Positions 3,187-39,753 of a DNA stretch of 39,825 nt are shown piece after piece (position 1 is the first letter of the stretch; each line of letters begins with the position of its first letter). The stretch is from Prevotellaceae bacterium. GTDB lineage: Bacteria; Bacteroidota; Bacteroidia; Bacteroidales; Paludibacteraceae. The translations under genes were made by a program, and so were the position numbers. Under the pieces are notes generated by a model. That model was not told where the DNA came from. It worked only from the letters and a program-made list of their open reading frames with translations, and searched no databases. Location of the stretch: assembly GCA_031270065.1 (NCBI GenBank), contig JAISYF010000086.1, positions 1-39,825 on the forward strand, written 5' to 3'.

Positions 3187-4082
3187 ATTTAAAAACATAC
3201 ATAGAGGGAAAACGCAACGGGCAAGAGATAAACGCTCTTGAACGTAAAGCATTGGAAGACAGGTTTTTAGAGGAGGCTTTGAATGGTTATGACAACATAA
3301 AAGGCAGCCACTCCGAAAATATTGCGGTGTTGCAGCAGAGCATTTTGCAGCAAAAACCGCAGACCGTTTTTCCGAAATATTTTGCTATTGCCGCCTCTGT
3401 TGCGTTGCTGCTCGGCTTTGGTGCGTTTTTGGCGTTGAATTTTGATAATTTATTCCCAAAAAAATATTTTATTGCAAAAAATATTTTGCAAAAAACCGAA
3501 AATAACAGTTTTCAAAATTTTGATAAAATAAAAATTGATACAGCAGAATTTAAAAATTTAATTGTAAAAACTGAAAAAGAGGATTTTATTGCGCCAAATT
3601 TTGACAGTGTAACAGGTTTTGATGATAGAGATTTTTTTGAAAGTATAGAAAAAACTGACCATTTTGATGCTGCAAAAGAAGTGGAAAAATCAATAGTTTC
3701 TGTTGATACCAATTCGCAAATATTGATTGCGCTGGCTGAAAATGAAAATATATTAAATGAAGTTGCTGTTGGCTACGGCACACAAAAAAGAAAAGATATA
3801 ACTCCCTCCGAAAAAACAAAAAAACCTGAGCCGATTATCGGTGCGAGAGCATATAAAAATTACCTCAAAAAGAATATCAACTACTCAATAAACGCAGACG
3901 GAAAGAGCGTTAAAGGCAAAGTTACGGTTGTTTTCTCAGTTGATACATTAGGACACCCGACAAATATTCGAGTAACAAAACCGCTCTGCCCTGAGTGCGA
4001 CAAAGAGGCTGTCCGCCTGATAACAAACGGCAGTGCTTGGACTCAAAGCAGCATAGAGGCAGAGGTGGAAATAATTTTTTAA
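3183..4082 (+). CDS. Membrane anti-sigma-like protein with TonB-type C-terminal domain
   Basis: This 299-residue single-pass protein has a cytoplasmic N-terminus (about 1-64) containing INALERKALEDRFLEEALNGYD. That resembles the short anti-sigma-like segment found in many Bacteroidetes proteins encoded beside ECF sigma factors. A transmembrane helix spans about 65-86. The periplasmic part carries a SusC-like VGYGTQKR motif (196-203) and ends in a TonB C-terminal-like fold (about 225-299, with VKGKVTVVFSVDTLGHPTNIRV). It overlaps the sigma gene by 4 bases, so it very probably controls that sigma factor, perhaps by sensing an outer-membrane transporter. Function is inferred from architecture and context. 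Confidence 0.7.
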   Translation: MNLKTYIEGKRNGQEINALERKALEDRFLEEALNGYDNIKGSHSENIAVLQQSILQQKPQTVFPKYFAIAASVALLLGFGAFLALNFDNLFPKKYFIAKNILQKTENNSFQNFDKIKIDTAEFKNLIVKTEKEDFIAPNFDSVTGFDDRDFFESIEKTDHFDAAKEVEKSIVSVDTNSQILIALAENENILNEVAVGYGTQKRKDITPSEKTKKPEPIIGARAYKNYLKKNINYSINADGKSVKGKVTVVFSVDTLGHPTNIRVTKPLCPECDKEAVRLITNGSAWTQSSIEAEVEIIF

Positions 4083-4090
4083 AAACACAA

Positions 4091-4190
4091 TGTTATTGAT
4101 GGTTATTGATAGTTATTTGTAGTTATTGATGGTTATTGATAGTTATTCGTAGTTATTAATGGTTATTGATAGTTATTTGTGGTTATTTTA
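4091..4190 (+). repeat. Ten 10-bp-phased decamers (three 30-bp units)
   Basis: Ten consecutive decamers of the form (A/G/T)GTTATTnnT run without a break. They group into three near-identical 30-bp units at 4092-4121, 4122-4151 and 4152-4181. One helical turn per decamer puts each GTTATT on the same DNA face. Downstream, ATAAC recurs at 4231, 4241, 4251 and 4261 in inverted orientation, so the transcript could also fold into a long hairpin. Confidence 0.85.
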
Positions 4191-4230
4191 TTGTAAAAAA
4201 CTAATAATAACAATAAATAACGCGAAGCAA

Positions 4231-4270
4231 ATAACTGTTAATAACTATTAATAACTATCAATAACAATAA
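4231..4270 (+). repeat. Inverted 10-bp-phased ATAAC decamers before the LptF/G gene
   Basis: Four ATAAC-headed decamers start at 4231, 4241, 4251 and 4261. They are the reverse complement of the decamer array at 4091-4190; AATAACTATCAATAAC, for example, is the complement of GTTATTGATAGTTATT. The set ends a few bases before the ATG at 4276, so it lies in the leader of the permease gene and could affect its translation. Confidence 0.75.
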
Positions 4271-4275
4271 ATATT

Positions 4276-5751
4276 ATGAATATCAAACGCATAGACCGCT
4301 ACATTTTCAGCAATTTTATAACGCTGTTTTTTGTTACGTTTTTCATTTGCCTTTTTATCGTGGTTATGCAATTTGTGTGGTTGCACGTCGATGAATTGAT
4401 TGGCAAAGGAATACCGCTTGGTATTTTATTGCGTTTTTTTTACTATGCCTGCCTCACATCAACGCCAGTCGCGATGCCGCTGGCGATATTGCTCGCTTCG
4501 TTAATGACATTCGGCAATCTTGGAGAGCGTCTCGAACTGCTGTCTATGAAAACTGCGGGAATTTCGCTTTTTAGGATAATGCGTTCGCTGATAATTTTTA
4601 TCTCGTTTGTGGTAATAGGTGCATTCTTTTTTTCAAATAATGTGATACCGATTGCGCAGAAAAAAATGTGGGTGCTGATGTTTTCGTTCCGCCAAAAATC
4701 GCCTGAATTGGAAATTCCTACGGGCGAATTTTACTCAGGTATTCGCGGAATGAACATTTATGTCAGGCATAAAGATGCCAAGAAAAAAGCCCTTTGCGAT
4801 GTAATGATTTACGACTACACAAACGGCTTTGAAAACGCCAATGTTACCACCGCCGACACGTTGCGGATTTCCACCACAGAGGACAAAAAGAATCTGGTTA
4901 TTTCGCTAATAAACGGCGAATATTTTGAAAATCTGCAAAAGCAAATGACAGGGCAAAACAACACGCCATACCGCCGCGAAACTTTTGAAAAAAAGGATTT
5001 GCTGCTTGATTTTGACTCTAATTTTCAAGAACTTAACGATGATATTTTTGATAATCAGCATATCAGCAAAGATTTTCAAAAACTGAGCAAAGATATTGAT
5101 TCTATAAATATTGTTCGTGATAGTTTGAAAGACGCTTATGCCGAAAATCTTGTAAAAAACCGCCTTTTTGAAAAAGCCTACCAGCCGACTTACATTGAGC
5201 GCAGAGATAGTTTGCCGATAAAATTTTCCGAAAAAACGATAAACACAGACTCATTATTCCTGTCCTCGTCGCAAGAGGAAATGAAACGCATCGCCTCCAC
5301 CTCGGTGCAGAAAATGCAGAACGTAATATCTGATGTGCAGTACAACACCATTGTGATTAACGATGCGGATAACTATTTTGTACGGCACGATATTGAGTGG
5401 CACAGAAAATTCACGCTCTCGTTTGCCTGCCTGATATTCTTTTTTATCGGTGCGCCTTTGGGTGCGATTATCGGCAAAGGCGGCTTGGGAATGCCAGCCG
5501 TTGTATCAATAGTTCTGTTCATAATCTACTATATAATAGATACTTACGGACAAAAAATGGGGCGTGAAAATGTTTGGTCGGTTTGGCAAGGAATGTGGCT
5601 CAGTTCGTCAATCCTGCTGCCGATAGGCATATTTTTGACCTACAAAGCGGCGACAGATTCCGAAATATTTAGAAATGAAACATACATCAAAATTTTCGAT
5701 ACCTCAAAAGAATTTTTTATAAAAATCTTAAAATTAAAAAAAAATAGATAA
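4276..5751 (+). CDS. LptF/LptG family permease (YjgP/YjgQ)
   Basis: This 491-residue inner-membrane protein has the LptF/LptG layout. The N-terminal RIDRYIFSNFITLFF motif is followed by three transmembrane helices, a large periplasmic beta-jellyroll region (about 130-370), and three C-terminal helices from about residue 375 (HRKFTLSFACLIFFFIGAPLGAIIGKGG). LptFG with the LptB ATPase extracts lipopolysaccharide from the inner membrane and passes it to LptC/LptA. Bacteroidetes often encode LptF and LptG apart; the sequence alone does not tell me which this is. The unusual leader repeat could influence its expression. Confidence 0.88.
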   Translation: MNIKRIDRYIFSNFITLFFVTFFICLFIVVMQFVWLHVDELIGKGIPLGILLRFFYYACLTSTPVAMPLAILLASLMTFGNLGERLELLSMKTAGISLFRIMRSLIIFISFVVIGAFFFSNNVIPIAQKKMWVLMFSFRQKSPELEIPTGEFYSGIRGMNIYVRHKDAKKKALCDVMIYDYTNGFENANVTTADTLRISTTEDKKNLVISLINGEYFENLQKQMTGQNNTPYRRETFEKKDLLLDFDSNFQELNDDIFDNQHISKDFQKLSKDIDSINIVRDSLKDAYAENLVKNRLFEKAYQPTYIERRDSLPIKFSEKTINTDSLFLSSSQEEMKRIASTSVQKMQNVISDVQYNTIVINDADNYFVRHDIEWHRKFTLSFACLIFFFIGAPLGAIIGKGGLGMPAVVSIVLFIIYYIIDTYGQKMGRENVWSVWQGMWLSSSILLPIGIFLTYKAATDSEIFRNETYIKIFDTSKEFFIKILKLKKNR

Positions 5752-5814
5752 TGAAAAAGATTTTTGCAACTTTGCAGCGTGAAAATATTTTAATAAATTT
5801 ATTTTAAATTTTAA

Positions 5815-6042
5815 GATTATATTGACAACACATCGGGCAGATTTGGCGTTAGCATCACAATCACAGGCGATTGGACTTCGTACATTAGTAACCACGCCAA
5901 GTGGATTTTTATAAATCCAAGCAGTAGCAAAACAGGAACGTACAACATTCAGATTGCGCTTGACGAATTTTTAAACGCAACAGATTTTTCAAAATTTTGT
6001 TGCGCTTTTTATTCCTCAATTCATACTCCAAAATTTTACTGA
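5815..6042 (+). pseudogene. Start-less remnant of a BACON/Ig-like secreted protein
   Basis: An open frame with no usable start codon encodes about 75 residues, including GVSITITGDWTSYISNHAKW and then INPSSSKTGTYNIQIALDEF. The pattern W...W.-.-.-PSSSKTGTYNI.I resembles a BACON-type beta domain, common in Bacteroidetes surface glycan proteins. It sits between the permease stop and the PorG-like promoter. A short ATG frame at 5751-5807 (MKKIFATLQ...) in another frame may be the frameshifted start of the same dead gene. This is most likely a decayed gene; a real alternative start is unlikely. Confidence 0.5.
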
Positions 6043-6075
6043 TAACTATCGGTATTATAATTCCGAAAAAATTTG

Positions 6076-6083
6076 TACCTTTG
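6076..6083 (+). promoter_or_regulatory. -7 promoter element of the PorG-like gene
   Basis: TACCTTTG matches TAnnTTTG, about 52 bases before the ATG at 6135. It would start the envelope operon (PorG-like, uppS, methyltransferase, bamA). Confidence 0.55.
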
Positions 6084-6134
6084 TAGCAATTTTTTTAAGA
6101 AAAAAACGTTTTATCTTGTATAAAACATTTTATT

Positions 6135-6815
6135 ATGAAGTTAAAATCTTGTTTTTGTGTTATATTGTTGATTATCACGAGTTTATTCTTTTCAAAGGCA
6201 TATTCTCAAAAATATAAATACACGAAATATTATCTTGAAACGGGCATTTTGGGTGGCGGTAGTTTTTATTTGGGCGATGTAAATGAGATGCTTTTTAAAA
6301 ATTTGTTGCCGACTTTTGGCGGTTTTGTGAAGTATAAATTTAATGGACATTGGGAACTCAAATTGCAATCCACCGCAGGACAGGCAGGTGTTGGCGTGTT
6401 TGACGGCAAATTTCGCCGAACAACCTTTACAGATGTGGCTGCCTATGCAGAATTTAACTTTTTTAACTTTGCGGCAGGTAAACTCGAACCCGCATCATCG
6501 CCTGTTTCGCCGTATATTTTTGTGGGAATTGGAGTAAGTTTCTTTAACGAAAAAGTTGTGCCGATAGTGCCATTCGGGCTTGGCGTAAAGTATCATTTCG
6601 GCAAACGTTGGAATATCGGCGCATATTGGGGCGCAACAAAAACACTGTGGAACGACAATTTTGACCTCGTTGATAACCCGCTCGGCTTAAACGCAGGAAT
6701 GTGGAACAACAATGATTGGTATTCGACTTGCGGTGTATATATTGCAATAAATTTCTGGGAAAAATGCGCTGCGTGCATAGATGGAAGAAAAAAAAATAAT
6801 TATTATAAAAGATAG
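6135..6815 (+). CDS. PorG-like outer-membrane beta-barrel protein (DUF6089 type)
   Basis: This 226-residue protein has a signal peptide (about 1-24, ending AYSQ) and then alternating hydrophobic strands and glycine turns typical of a small outer-membrane barrel (YLETGILGGGSFYLGDVNE, PYIFVGIGVSFF, NIGAYWGATKT). In Bacteroidetes a DUF6089 protein is commonly encoded just upstream of uppS and bamA, and PorG of the type IX secretion system belongs to this group. The T9SS sorting domains encoded further along fit a working system. The assignment rests on the fold pattern and gene order. The last residues (KKNNYYKR) are basic and unusual for a barrel end. Confidence 0.7.
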   Translation: MKLKSCFCVILLIITSLFFSKAYSQKYKYTKYYLETGILGGGSFYLGDVNEMLFKNLLPTFGGFVKYKFNGHWELKLQSTAGQAGVGVFDGKFRRTTFTDVAAYAEFNFFNFAAGKLEPASSPVSPYIFVGIGVSFFNEKVVPIVPFGLGVKYHFGKRWNIGAYWGATKTLWNDNFDLVDNPLGLNAGMWNNNDWYSTCGVYIAINFWEKCAACIDGRKKNNYYKR

Positions 6816-6999
6816 AATTTTATTAAAGTTTAAAAATGGAAATGGAAATGGAAAGACAACGGTGTAGAAAAATATATTAAATTGCAATAAAAAGGAAAAT
6901 TAAAACTTGATTTATCTTATGAAAGAATGATTGCCGAAAAAGAGCAAGGCGCGATGACTTGGTTTTTGTTCGCAATAATAAAATAGTTTCGGTAAGATT

Positions 7000-7749
7000 A
7001 TGAATTTTAAAGAAAAAATAAACAAATCTTTTCTTCCGCGCCATATTGCGATAGTGATGGACGGGAACGGCAGATGGGCGAAATATAAAGGTTTTGACCG
7101 CCTTTTTGGGCATTCCAACGGTATTAAAACCGTTCGGCAAATCACAGAGGCGGCAGTGGAAATAGGACTTGAATATCTTACACTCTACACTTTTTCTACG
7201 GAAAATTGGAATCGCCCTGAAAAAGAAATTGCAGGAATAATGCGGCTTTTGGTAGAAAGCATCGAAAAAGAAACGCCCACATTTCATCAAAACAACGTGC
7301 GCCTGCTTGTAATCGGCGACCTCTACCGCCTCCAAGATGACGTGCGGGCAAAATTGCAGGGCTGTATCACGGAAACAAGCAAAAACACAGGGCTTTCGCT
7401 TGTGCTGGCATTGAGTTATTCATCGAAATGGGAAATTATAAAAGCGTTTAAAGACATTATTTTTGATTTGAAAAATGGTAAGTTTGATGAGGATTTTATT
7501 GATGAACGGTTGATTTCAGAATATCTTACCACACGCAATATTCCCGACCCCGACATGCTGATTAGAACGGGCGGCGAGGTGCGGATTAGCAATTTTTTGC
7601 TGTGGCAGGCGGCATATTCGGAACTCTTTTTTACCGATGTTTTTTGGCCTGATTTCACAAAAGAAAATTTTTATGAAATGATTGTAGAATATCAAAACAG
7701 AGAACGCAGATTTGGAAAAACAAGCGAACAGGTTTCAATTAAAAATTAA
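7000..7749 (+). CDS. uppS: Isoprenyl transferase (undecaprenyl diphosphate synthase)
   Basis: This 249-residue cis-prenyltransferase condenses isopentenyl diphosphate units onto farnesyl diphosphate to make undecaprenyl diphosphate, the lipid carrier for peptidoglycan and O-antigen. Signature segments are all present: HIAIVMDGNGRWAK with the catalytic Asp at D21, FGHSNGIKTVR, LTLYTFSTENWNRP, and the C-terminal DPDMLIRTGGEVRISNFLLW followed by YSELFF and FWPDF. The length is normal. It lies downstream of the PorG-like gene, and only 6 bases separate its stop from the methyltransferase start. Confidence 0.97.
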   Translation: MNFKEKINKSFLPRHIAIVMDGNGRWAKYKGFDRLFGHSNGIKTVRQITEAAVEIGLEYLTLYTFSTENWNRPEKEIAGIMRLLVESIEKETPTFHQNNVRLLVIGDLYRLQDDVRAKLQGCITETSKNTGLSLVLALSYSSKWEIIKAFKDIIFDLKNGKFDEDFIDERLISEYLTTRNIPDPDMLIRTGGEVRISNFLLWQAAYSELFFTDVFWPDFTKENFYEMIVEYQNRERRFGKTSEQVSIKN

Positions 7750-12725: not shown

Positions 12726-12755
12726 AAAATAAAATAAAATAAAATAAAATAAAAT
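12726..12755 (+). repeat. AAAAT pentanucleotide microsatellite, six copies
   Basis: Six uninterrupted AAAAT units lie between the stem-loop and the minisatellite. The tract is prone to slippage and lies upstream of the second ompH gene. Confidence 0.9.
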
Positions 12756-12758
12756 AAA

Positions 12759-13105
12759 TCAAACAAAGACAAAAAATGATAATAACTTTCACAAGTCTTT
12801 ATTCTTTGCTCTTTACTCTTTGTTCTAAATTATTAACAAATAAAAAAAAATCAAACAAAGACAAAAAATAAAAATAACTTTCACAAGTCTTTATTCTTTA
12901 CTCTTTGTTCTTTGCTCTAAATTATTAACAAATAAAAAAAAAAAATCAAACAAAGACAAAAAATGATAATAACTTTCACAAGTCTTTATTCTTTACTCTT
13001 TGCTCTTTGTTCTAAATTATTAACAACGACAAAAAATAAAAATAACTTTCACAAGTCTTTATTCTTTGTTCTTTACTCTTTGTTCTAAATTATTAACAAA
13101 TTAAA
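12759..13105 (+). repeat. Four-copy minisatellite upstream of second ompH
   Basis: Four tandem units start at 12759, 12851, 12946 and about 13027, each 80-95 bp. Each contains a CAAAGACAAAAAAT-like head, the invariant block AATAACTTTCACAAGTCTTT, a run of (C/T)TCTTT(A/G) heptamers in differing order, and the tail CTAAATTATTAACAA. The last unit ends 15 bases before the ompH ATG. I see no coding capacity. The heptamers give TAnnnTTTG near-matches to the -7 promoter consensus, but with one extra spacer base. Confidence 0.9.
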
Positions 13106-13119
13106 AATATTTTAAAGTA

Positions 13120-25486: not shown

Positions 25487-25514
25487 GATTATTCTCTGTT
25501 ATTTTGAAAATATT

Positions 25515-25621
25515 TAGGAAACGTGAAAAAATAGAGTTTTTTGGTGCTGGGAAACGTGAAAAATCGGTGTGTTTTGCTATTAGGAAACGTGAAATAGAGC
25601 GTGGTAATTAATTGATTTACA
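25515..25621 (+). repeat. Left 107-bp direct repeat with three 33-bp iterons
   Basis: GGAAACGTGAAA starts at 25517, 25550 and 25583, exactly 33 bases apart. The block ends with GTGGTAATTAATTGATTTAC plus A. It matches the block at 27083-27189 over its full 107 bases with about 12 mismatches and no gaps by eye. The 12-base iteron heads are identical in all six units, and the rest of each unit drifts. It lies upstream of the ATPase promoter. Confidence 0.93.
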
Positions 25622-25681
25622 TATAGTTGTATTGATTTTGTTTTTGCAATATAAAAATAAGCCAAAATAAAAAAAAAGTTG

Positions 25682-25689
25682 TACCTTTG
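25682..25689 (+). promoter_or_regulatory. -7 promoter element of the ATPase gene
   Basis: TACCTTTG matches TAnnTTTG, about 38 bases before the ATG at 25727 and 60 bases downstream of the left iteron block. This gives the gene its own promoter within the glucan locus. Confidence 0.6.
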
Positions 25690-25726
25690 TAACCATATTT
25701 TTACAGTAAAAAAGTAGTAATAAATT

Positions 25727-27076
25727 ATGAAACGAAAGATTTACAACGAGTTGATTGCCTGGCGAAAAGAATACAACGGAAGTGCCGCCTTGATGATAGA
25801 CGGCGCAAGGCGTATCGGAAAAAGTTATATCGCGGAGGATTTTGCACACAACGAATATAAATCGTATATTCTTGTGGATTTTAACCGAGCAGATAAAAAT
25901 TTGTTAGATATTTTTGAACAGTATTTAACGAATTTAGACGAATTTTTCAGTTTTTTAAGTTTGTATTTTAATATAAAACTGTATGAACGCAATTCGGTTA
26001 TTATTTTTGATGAGGTGCAACTTTATCCTAAGGCGCGGGCGGCAATCAAATATTTGGTGGCAGACGGCAGATACGATTTTATAGAAACAGGCTCGCTTGT
26101 GAGCATTAATCGTAATGTAAAAGATATTGTAATTCCTTCGGAGGAGCATCGAATAGATATGTTTCCAATGGATTTTGAGGAGTTTTTGTGGGCAACAGAA
26201 AACGAAAATTTAGCAAATTTTATTCGTCAATGTTTTGAAAAAAAAGAACCGACCAAAGTTTTGCACCGAAAAATTACGGAGTTGTTTCGGCACTATCTTA
26301 TCGTTGGCGGAATGCCACAAGCAGTGTTGAAATATGTGGAAACAGGCAATTTTTTGAAAGTTGATACAGTAAAACGCGATATTTTGAAATTATACAGAGC
26401 GGACATTGAAAAATATGCAGATGGCAATACAATTAAAGTTAAAGCGATTTTTGATGAAATTCCTTCTGCGCTTGGCAGGCACGAAAAGAAATTCAGATTT
26501 TCGGAGTTGAAAAATTCGGCTCGTTACAGAGATTATGAATCGGCATTTTTTTGGTTAGACGAGTCGCGAGTGGTAAATATTTGTTATAATTCTACCGCAC
26601 CAAATTTGGGATTGCGCTTAAACGAGGAACGAACCACGCTGAAATGTTATTTGGCGGATACAGGACTGCTGATTTCGCATACTTTTAATGAAAAAACTGT
26701 AAAACACGAAGATTTGTACTTAAAATTGGCGTTGGGCAAACTTGAACTGAACGAGGGAATGTTGATAGAAAATATTGTGGCTCAAATGCTTCGTGCAGCA
26801 GGACACGACCTGTATTTTTTCTCGCAATATTCAAAAGAAGTTGCCGAAAATCGTATGGAAATTGATTTTTTGATTGCAAAACCTGTGATTACCAATCGGC
26901 ACAACATTTCGCCGATAGAGGTAAAATCGGGTTCGGGGTATAAATTGAGTTCGCTAAAAAAATTGCGCAACAAATACTCTTCGTTTTTGGCAGAAACTTA
27001 TGTGTTGCACACCGCTGATTTAAAAATAGAGAACGAAATAATTTATTTGCCTCTCTATATGACAGGGCTATTGTAA
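25727..27076 (+). CDS. AAA-type ATPase with DUF4143 / PD-(D/E)xK-like C-terminal region
   Basis: This 449-residue protein has a Walker A motif GARRIGKS (26-33) and Walker B VIIFDE (91-96). Arginine- and aromatic-rich segments of the 'ATP-binding, DUF4143' family follow (FPMDFEEFLWATENE; LIVGGMPQAVLKYVE; LKCYLADTGLLIS). The C-terminal MEIDFLIAKP...SPIEVKSG has D380, E398 and K400 in a PD-(D/E)xK-like arrangement. Such proteins are numerous in gut Bacteroidales and have no settled function. It has its own promoter and is bracketed by 107-bp direct repeats; the right repeat begins 7 bases after the stop. It has no evident tie to glycan use and looks like inserted cargo. Confidence 0.88.
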   Translation: MKRKIYNELIAWRKEYNGSAALMIDGARRIGKSYIAEDFAHNEYKSYILVDFNRADKNLLDIFEQYLTNLDEFFSFLSLYFNIKLYERNSVIIFDEVQLYPKARAAIKYLVADGRYDFIETGSLVSINRNVKDIVIPSEEHRIDMFPMDFEEFLWATENENLANFIRQCFEKKEPTKVLHRKITELFRHYLIVGGMPQAVLKYVETGNFLKVDTVKRDILKLYRADIEKYADGNTIKVKAIFDEIPSALGRHEKKFRFSELKNSARYRDYESAFFWLDESRVVNICYNSTAPNLGLRLNEERTTLKCYLADTGLLISHTFNEKTVKHEDLYLKLALGKLELNEGMLIENIVAQMLRAAGHDLYFFSQYSKEVAENRMEIDFLIAKPVITNRHNISPIEVKSGSGYKLSSLKKLRNKYSSFLAETYVLHTADLKIENEIIYLPLYMTGLL

Positions 27077-27082
27077 AAAAAT

Positions 27083-27189
27083 TAGGAAACGTGAAAAAAC
27101 AGAGTGTTTGAGTGCTTGGAAACGTGAAAAATTAGGGTGTTTTGCTATTAGGAAACGTGAAAACGAAAGTGGTAATTAATTGATTTACA
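27083..27189 (+). repeat. Right 107-bp direct repeat with three 33-bp iterons
   Basis: GGAAACGTGAAA starts at 27085, 27118 and 27151, again exactly 33 bases apart. It ends with the same GTGGTAATTAATTGATTTAC plus A as the left copy. Orientation is direct, and the offset from the left copy is exactly 1568 bases. Beyond 27189 the two flanks diverge. Confidence 0.93.
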
Positions 27190-27245
27190 ATGATTTAAGT
27201 CGATTTTTAATTTTTTGAAAATTTTGTAGATAAAATATATAATAA

Positions 27246-27344
27246 ATGAAAAATTTATTAGAAACCGAAAATAATTTACCTCAAAAATCTTCGGAAATAA
27301 TTATTTATCAAACCGAAGACGGACAGACCAAAGATAAATCATAA
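27246..27344 (+). pseudogene. N-terminal relic of a RhuM-family virulence protein gene
   Basis: A 32-codon frame encodes MKNLLETENNLPQKSSEII and then IYQTEDGQTKDKS before the stop. The EIIIYQTEDGQTK string is the recognisable start of RhuM-type proteins, where it normally continues into a V-W-L-T-Q-AQ segment. Here the frame ends right after the opening motif, so the body of the gene is missing. It lies between the right iteron block and the hydrolase gene, 13 bases before the latter's ATG, and marks this gap as a site of insertion and deletion. Confidence 0.65.
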
Positions 27345-36083: not shown

Positions 36084-36130
36084 AATTTGAAAATTTGAGG
36101 ATTTGAAATTAAAATCCCAAAATATTCAAA
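36084..36130. repeat. 47-bp repeat, copy 1
   Basis: An AATTTGAAAATTTGAGGATT-headed AT-rich block is identical over 47 bases to 39707-39753. It abuts the MITE-like element and ends shortly before the ETF-QO stop. Confidence 0.85.
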
Positions 36131-39706: not shown

Positions 39707-39753
39707 AATTTGAAAATTTGAGGATTTGAAATTAAAATCCCAAAATATTCAAA
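39707..39753. repeat. 47-bp repeat, copy 2
   Basis: Identical over 47 bases to 36084-36130. Here it continues into a partly complementary tail (CAAATTGAATCCTCAAATTG, to about 39785), so this copy can form an imperfect hairpin. The remaining bases to the window end show no gene start. Confidence 0.85.

Follow-up and report, generated by a model that had tools for sequence, protein, structure and literature searches.

Why is an ATPase gene between susD and a CatAgl-type glucanase gene enclosed by two blocks of three short, identical sequences, and which protein recognises them? The question arises from a stretch of 39,825 nucleotides of a Prevotellaceae bacterium (contig JAISYF010000086.1, assembly GCA_031270065.1; the window in the following), in which the gene for a DUF4143 ATPase is flanked by direct repeats built of 33-bp units (iterons), each with an invariant 12-bp head. 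We consider it probable that the DUF4143 ATPase is a self-contained AAA+/winged-helix/PD-(D/E)XK module with a private operator array, and that it regulates its own gene by binding to this array and spreads as a unit. About 60–70% of the sampled DUF4143 genes from several phyla have two to five iterons, usually three, at a pitch of 32–34 bp just upstream, compared to ∼1% of the neighbouring genes. DUF4143 ATPases have been proposed by computation as defence candidates, and their iteron arrays appear to be the new part.

Iteron arrays upstream of DUF4143 genes

An array was counted if a 14-bp stretch occurred three times in the upstream DNA and its copies agreed in 10 or more columns; thresholds and window sizes of the scans were chosen during the work, so that the counts are approximate. 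At a pitch of 32–33 bp arrays were found for 31 of 51 DUF4143 genes versus 2 of 163 neighbouring open reading frames (ORFs). The first of these two represents the right-hand block of the window, which precedes the glucanase gene; the second, in our judgement and with no separate check, overlaps a DUF4143 upstream region. A collection scan yielded 80 homologues (50–69% identity), mostly from metagenome-assembled genomes of Bacteroidota, Bacillota, Spirochaetales, Lentisphaeria, Kiritimatiellae, Myxococcales, Alphaproteobacteria and others, whose taxon labels can be wrong; isolates among them include Bifidobacterium jacchi and Faecalicoccus acidiformans. Together with 10 contigs of a viral collection, ∼62 of these 90 sequences (a few of them near-duplicates) have an array with a pitch of 33 or 34 bp that mostly comprises three, sometimes four or five units. 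In the genome of the window itself, 10 of 13 readable DUF4143 paralogues have two to five units at 32–33 bp, with differing heads.

Two data sets were analysed after the pattern had been fixed. In 38 remote homologues (∼30–37% identity) an array at 32–33 bp was present 24 times, compared to 1.7% in shuffles. When 393 genomes were scanned for one of the heads, exact triplets at 33 bp turned up twice, each time immediately in front of a DUF4143 gene, and one of the two was new; five single matches looked unrelated. The truncated homologue of the window gene in genome G017 (79% over 162 residues) has related heads, 33 bp apart, immediately upstream of its start, and a plasmid-borne DUF4143 copy of Glaesserella (27.5% identity) also possesses an array; in an Acinetobacter plasmid homologue an array was looked for and not found. 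No array at 32–34 bp was detected in two other ATPase families, PF01637 (0/29) and PF09820 (0/28). The upstream arrays in relatives of several phyla support an earlier note on this DNA, which had considered a link of the iterons to DUF4143 genes. Bracketing by iterons, for which the same note had proposed to search around other DUF4143 genes, is not the rule, since most relatives have an array upstream only.

Some iterons lie away from the start of a DUF4143 gene. In a third genome of the 393-genome scan (L374, G581:C5) two AAAAATCTCAAAAAGGTG heads lie 33 bp apart with no ATPase following, possibly an orphan array after gene loss. A further iteron pair is located 1.2 kb upstream at locus L098, and single iteron-like copies lie 0.9 and 2.7 kb downstream at L155.

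Repeats and promoter geometry

The features of the window locus are as follows.

25507..25639, + strand: left direct repeat with iterons 1–3 (83% identity to 27075–27207)
25517..25528, + strand: head of iteron 1, GGAAACGTGAAA (exact match)
25550..25561, + strand: head of iteron 2, GGAAACGTGAAA (exact match)
25583..25594, + strand: head of iteron 3, GGAAACGTGAAA (exact match)
25682..25689, + strand: probable -7 promoter box TACCTTTG of the ATPase gene, Bacteroidota-type (from sequence and phase analysis of relatives)
25727..27076, + strand: ATPase-nuclease gene, 449 aa (Pfam AAA_14 and DUF4143; PADLOC PDC-S01; alignments; AlphaFold2)
27075..27207, + strand: right direct repeat with iterons 4–6 (83% identity to the left repeat)
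27085..27096, + strand: head of iteron 4, GGAAACGTGAAA (exact match)
27118..27129, + strand: head of iteron 5, GGAAACGTGAAA (exact match)
27151..27162, + strand: head of iteron 6, GGAAACGTGAAA (exact match)

As originally described, the direct repeats around the ATPase gene are of equal length and gap-free, with 12 mismatches in a core of 107 bp (25515–25621 and 27083–27189); similarity extends over 133 bp with 22 mismatches (25507–25639 and 27075–27207). The stop codon of the gene is the start of the right-hand repeat. A recount of the units bore out the six identical heads, arranged in two blocks of three with a pitch of 33 bp throughout, and the drift of the remaining unit, in which only two or three positions are invariant. 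This selective conservation suggests a protein-binding site, in agreement with the earlier proposal. In the genome of the window (2,768,955 bases, 239 contigs) exact GGAAACGTGAAA occurs six times, always in the window, and a genome-wide dispersed repeat was rejected on this count; the reversed control pattern of GGAAACGTGAAA gave 5 matches. Judging by its ORFs the window appears chromosomal.

The arrays of the relatives stand in a fixed phase to the promoter. In Bacteroidota a TAnnTTTG box is found at +18 from the head start, directly after GTG, in 19 of 27 sites, while sites of other phyla have TAnAAT at +18/19 (20/51). Since the head end is the exact start of the -10/-7 box in relatives, the head looks like an operator, and as two promoter types share one phase, it most likely fills the promoter spacer. 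Of 74 TTGA, 39 belong to the head itself. The pitch of 32–34 bp corresponds to about three helical turns, which places the heads on nearly one face of the DNA.

A pitch of 33 nt also equals 11 codons, and the iterons might act as RNA or encode an 11-residue repeat peptide. By eye, one frame can be followed through both window arrays without a stop codon, and some Bacteroidota arrays lie past the predicted transcription start. However, many arrays have a pitch of 32 or 34 bp, which breaks the frame; the position of the array relative to the promoter box also varies between loci (before, around or after it), and an RNA identity was rejected as Rfam gave no match. We regard this explanation as hardly credible.

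Domain structure of the ATPase-nuclease

The window protein contains AAA_14 and DUF4143 (Pfam), both above cut-off, and belongs over its full length to PDC-S01 (E=1.5e-108), the PADLOC phage defence candidate that comprises DUF4143/COG1373 ATPases. An AAA+ domain (∼1–195) is followed by a helical part (196–234), a winged helix (∼235–309) and a PD-(D/E)XK-type domain (329–449), whose residues E348, D380, E398 and K400 are invariant across 74 aligned sequences. The AlphaFold2 model reached a pLDDT (predicted local distance difference test) of 90 and a pTM (predicted template modelling score) of 0.90, and we assigned the winged helix from the helix-strand order in this model.

A sequence search for a solved relative found none convincing. 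The structure search was performed with the whole protein, and its top PDB match was 2qen (Z 16.7, root mean square deviation 4.5, 267 aligned). Like 2fna (SSO1545, Z 15.3), 2qen (PABY2304) is an archaeal AAA+ ATPase of a different family, whose fold matches over residues 1–320. CED-4/NLR proteins and Orc/Cdc6 chains come next, the latter matching the AAA+ part. Orc1/Cdc6 initiators and the iteron-binding Rep proteins of plasmids likewise act on repeated DNA sites. In contrast, DUF4143 arrays lie on the promoter region of their own gene and show no sign of an origin, although no search for replication genes was made in the window; plasmid iterons are usually ∼20–22 bp apart.

Private heads and their probable recognition

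The head consensus of the main group reads AAAAATCT, then seven variable bases, then GTG and TA. Those seven bases are the same among the copies of one locus but differ between loci. The exact GGAAACGTGAAA is not a recognition word common to the family; each DUF4143 gene has its own head. Head similarity follows protein similarity with a Mantel r of 0.51 (0/2000 permutations), a figure that is inflated by common descent of the sequences, and this correlation fits recognition of the head by the encoded protein. Mutual information with the variable head core was highest in the winged helix (circular-shift p 0.048).

Alternatively, an unlinked regulator of the host could use the array as its operator, without any binding by the ATPase. 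Heads differ, however, among the paralogues of a single genome, they follow the ATPase sequence across phyla, and the window head is unique to its locus in its own genome; no common partner gene was noticed, although neighbours were not compared systematically. All this makes an unlinked regulator quite improbable. If the ATPase is a self-regulating module, it would bind its own heads through the winged helix, and the bound ATPase would repress or set its own expression until triggered. The diversified heads would insulate ten or more paralogues of one genome from each other. The unit that begins with the first iteron and ends with the stop codon probably spreads between sites, in some cases with target duplication.

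Flanking repeats and insertion boundaries

Flanking direct repeats were found at 31 of 175 DUF4143 genes (∼18%) versus 21 of 505 neighbours, and in 25 of the 31 the right-hand copy begins at most 50 nt from the stop codon. In a swapped-pair control with an 81-locus set, 13 cases were observed at score 15 versus 0.08 expected. The repeated flank differs at nearly every locus and is mostly locus-specific host sequence, not iterons. At L116, the SDR case, a perfect repeat of 21 bp ends ∼7 bp before the first iteron and resumes at the stop codon; if the frame is continued from the repeat into the right flank, the C-terminus is ...RLKIKS; relatives have the similar ends ...RLKIRN and ...RLKISN, and the left copy gives ...RLKICR. 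At L131 the flanking repeat is perfect over 73 bp. At L230, L234 and L272 it consists of the first ∼114 bp of a PLD-like gene. Sister genomes have this gene intact, with no DUF4143 gene immediately before it (L270, L271, L273, L274 and L275; in L275 it is incomplete or missing from the ORF calls). We read the repeats at L116 (21 bp) and at the PLD-gene loci (∼114 bp) as target duplications, and the DUF4143 gene often looks inserted into neighbouring genes. The ATPase is furthermore present in one species (L081/G082) and missing in another (G008). G008 was rejected as a clean empty site, since a remnant, transposon-like in our reading, occupies it.

The ATPase gene behaves as a small mobile unit, which the earlier note had considered as one possibility. 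We infer that array and ORF together form a one-gene module that spreads; self-movement is not part of this inference. It seems unlikely to us that iteron-bearing AAA+-PD-(D/E)XK genes form a new class of self-moving one-gene element. In such an element the ATPase-nuclease would recognise its own array as left end, move everything from there to the stop codon and leave long target duplications of variable length; the array would at the same time repress the promoter, and private iterons would keep paralogues insulated. Similarly low is the probability that the iterons are primarily transposon-end-like sites, bound by an ATPase-nuclease that mobilises its own gene between the array as left and the stop codon as right end, again with long variable target duplications. 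The boundaries at array and stop codon, as in L116 and L131, the enrichment of flanking repeats, the presence or absence between sister species and the union of AAA+ and nuclease in one protein speak in its favour. However, no motif was found at the right end, nor synonymous constraint at the 3' end, so that the unit may end at the stop codon because selection favoured the shortest functional version, and not through recognition of this end. Moreover, inverted repeats were not clearly over background around the cassettes in most loci, most loci have no target duplication, and regulation better explains the promoter phase. For the Glaesserella plasmid case no empty site was present in the plasmid collection. 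IS1634 and IS1549 are insertion sequences with long variable target duplications. They resemble the DUF4143 unit in having target-derived direct repeats of tens to hundreds of bp, but this unit has neither a transposase nor terminal inverted repeats.

A second ATPase family of similar layout was noticed among PF01637-type genes of relatives (L282–L311). As with DUF4143, these Bacteroidales genes often have flanking direct repeats that begin near the stop codon (∼8 of 29, most starting at most 10 nt from it). They differ in lacking arrays at 32–34 bp, and a few have upstream repeats 52–54 bp apart.

Several observations weigh against a self-regulating module that spreads as a unit. About a third of the DUF4143 genes have no array by our test, and flanking repeats occur in a minority of loci only, and also in 4% of neighbours. 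Only 8 of 74 sites have TTGA, the upstream (-35/-33) box, at the phase expected for it, and the covariation signal by domain is weak, in addition to the common descent behind the Mantel figure. In the window, the -7 box is located ∼85 bp downstream of the array and outside the phase usual in relatives; direct promoter occlusion is therefore not evident there.

The second array of the window

An iteron block close behind the stop codon is present in the window, L237, L248, L253 and partly L236, while L122 has an iteron-bearing repeat ∼550 bp downstream. The second array of the window may have arisen by recombination between a resident array and a unit of iterons plus gene, or by partial tandem duplication. 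For the window only, and compatible with the module proposed here, the right iterons could also be the remnant of a tandem iteron-ATPase pair whose second ATPase was lost. Tandem DUF4143 genes exist (L278, L280), iterons behind the stop codon are seen in L248 and L253, and in the sister species G001 the place between SusD and glucanase is occupied by another DUF4143 gene, which is not orthologous. On the other hand, no fragment of a second ATPase was recognised past the right block, and target duplication better accounts for the PLD and SDR cases; we thus regard a tandem remnant as possible but somewhat doubtful. The empty site of the window insertion, for which the comparison of relatives had been suggested, was not found: in G001 the place is taken by the other DUF4143 ATPase, and G002–G004 gave no syntenic match for the locus. 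Between SusD and the DUF4143 gene of G001 lies a SUMF1-like ORF; the locus with both is L204 (G001:C97, reversed coordinates 3990–7069).

The right repeat of the window is followed by a 32-codon ORF (27246–27344), which resembles the start of a RhuM-type protein; tblastn in plasmids did not confirm this, as it found nothing. Elsewhere the window contains four repeats of ∼127 nt with spacings of 92, 95 and 73 (12732–13118), an array of 10-bp GTTATTGATA-like units plus inverted counterparts (4082–4274), and a perfect 47-bp direct repeat with copies 3.6 kb apart (36084–36130 and 39707–39753).

Significance for the DUF4143 family

Among the (candidate) defence systems of prokaryotes, DUF4143/PDC-S01 reportedly ranks fourth in abundance, and in rumen genomes no other single locus is reported to be as frequent (PMC12988326, PMC13356809); PDC-S01 was described as an ATPase fused to PD-(D/E)XK (PMC12988326). 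Most PADLOC phage defence candidates still await experimental validation. In the literature searched, which left preprints and most subscription papers outside, we found neither an account of how DUF4143/PDC-S01 works nor a description of its iteron array, promoter phase or target duplication. A private array in promoter phase offers a handle on the DNA that would be bound, on regulation, on cross-talk between paralogues and on insertion boundaries. Protein-head pairs that have diversified many times would be a natural set of orthogonal DNA-binding specificities.
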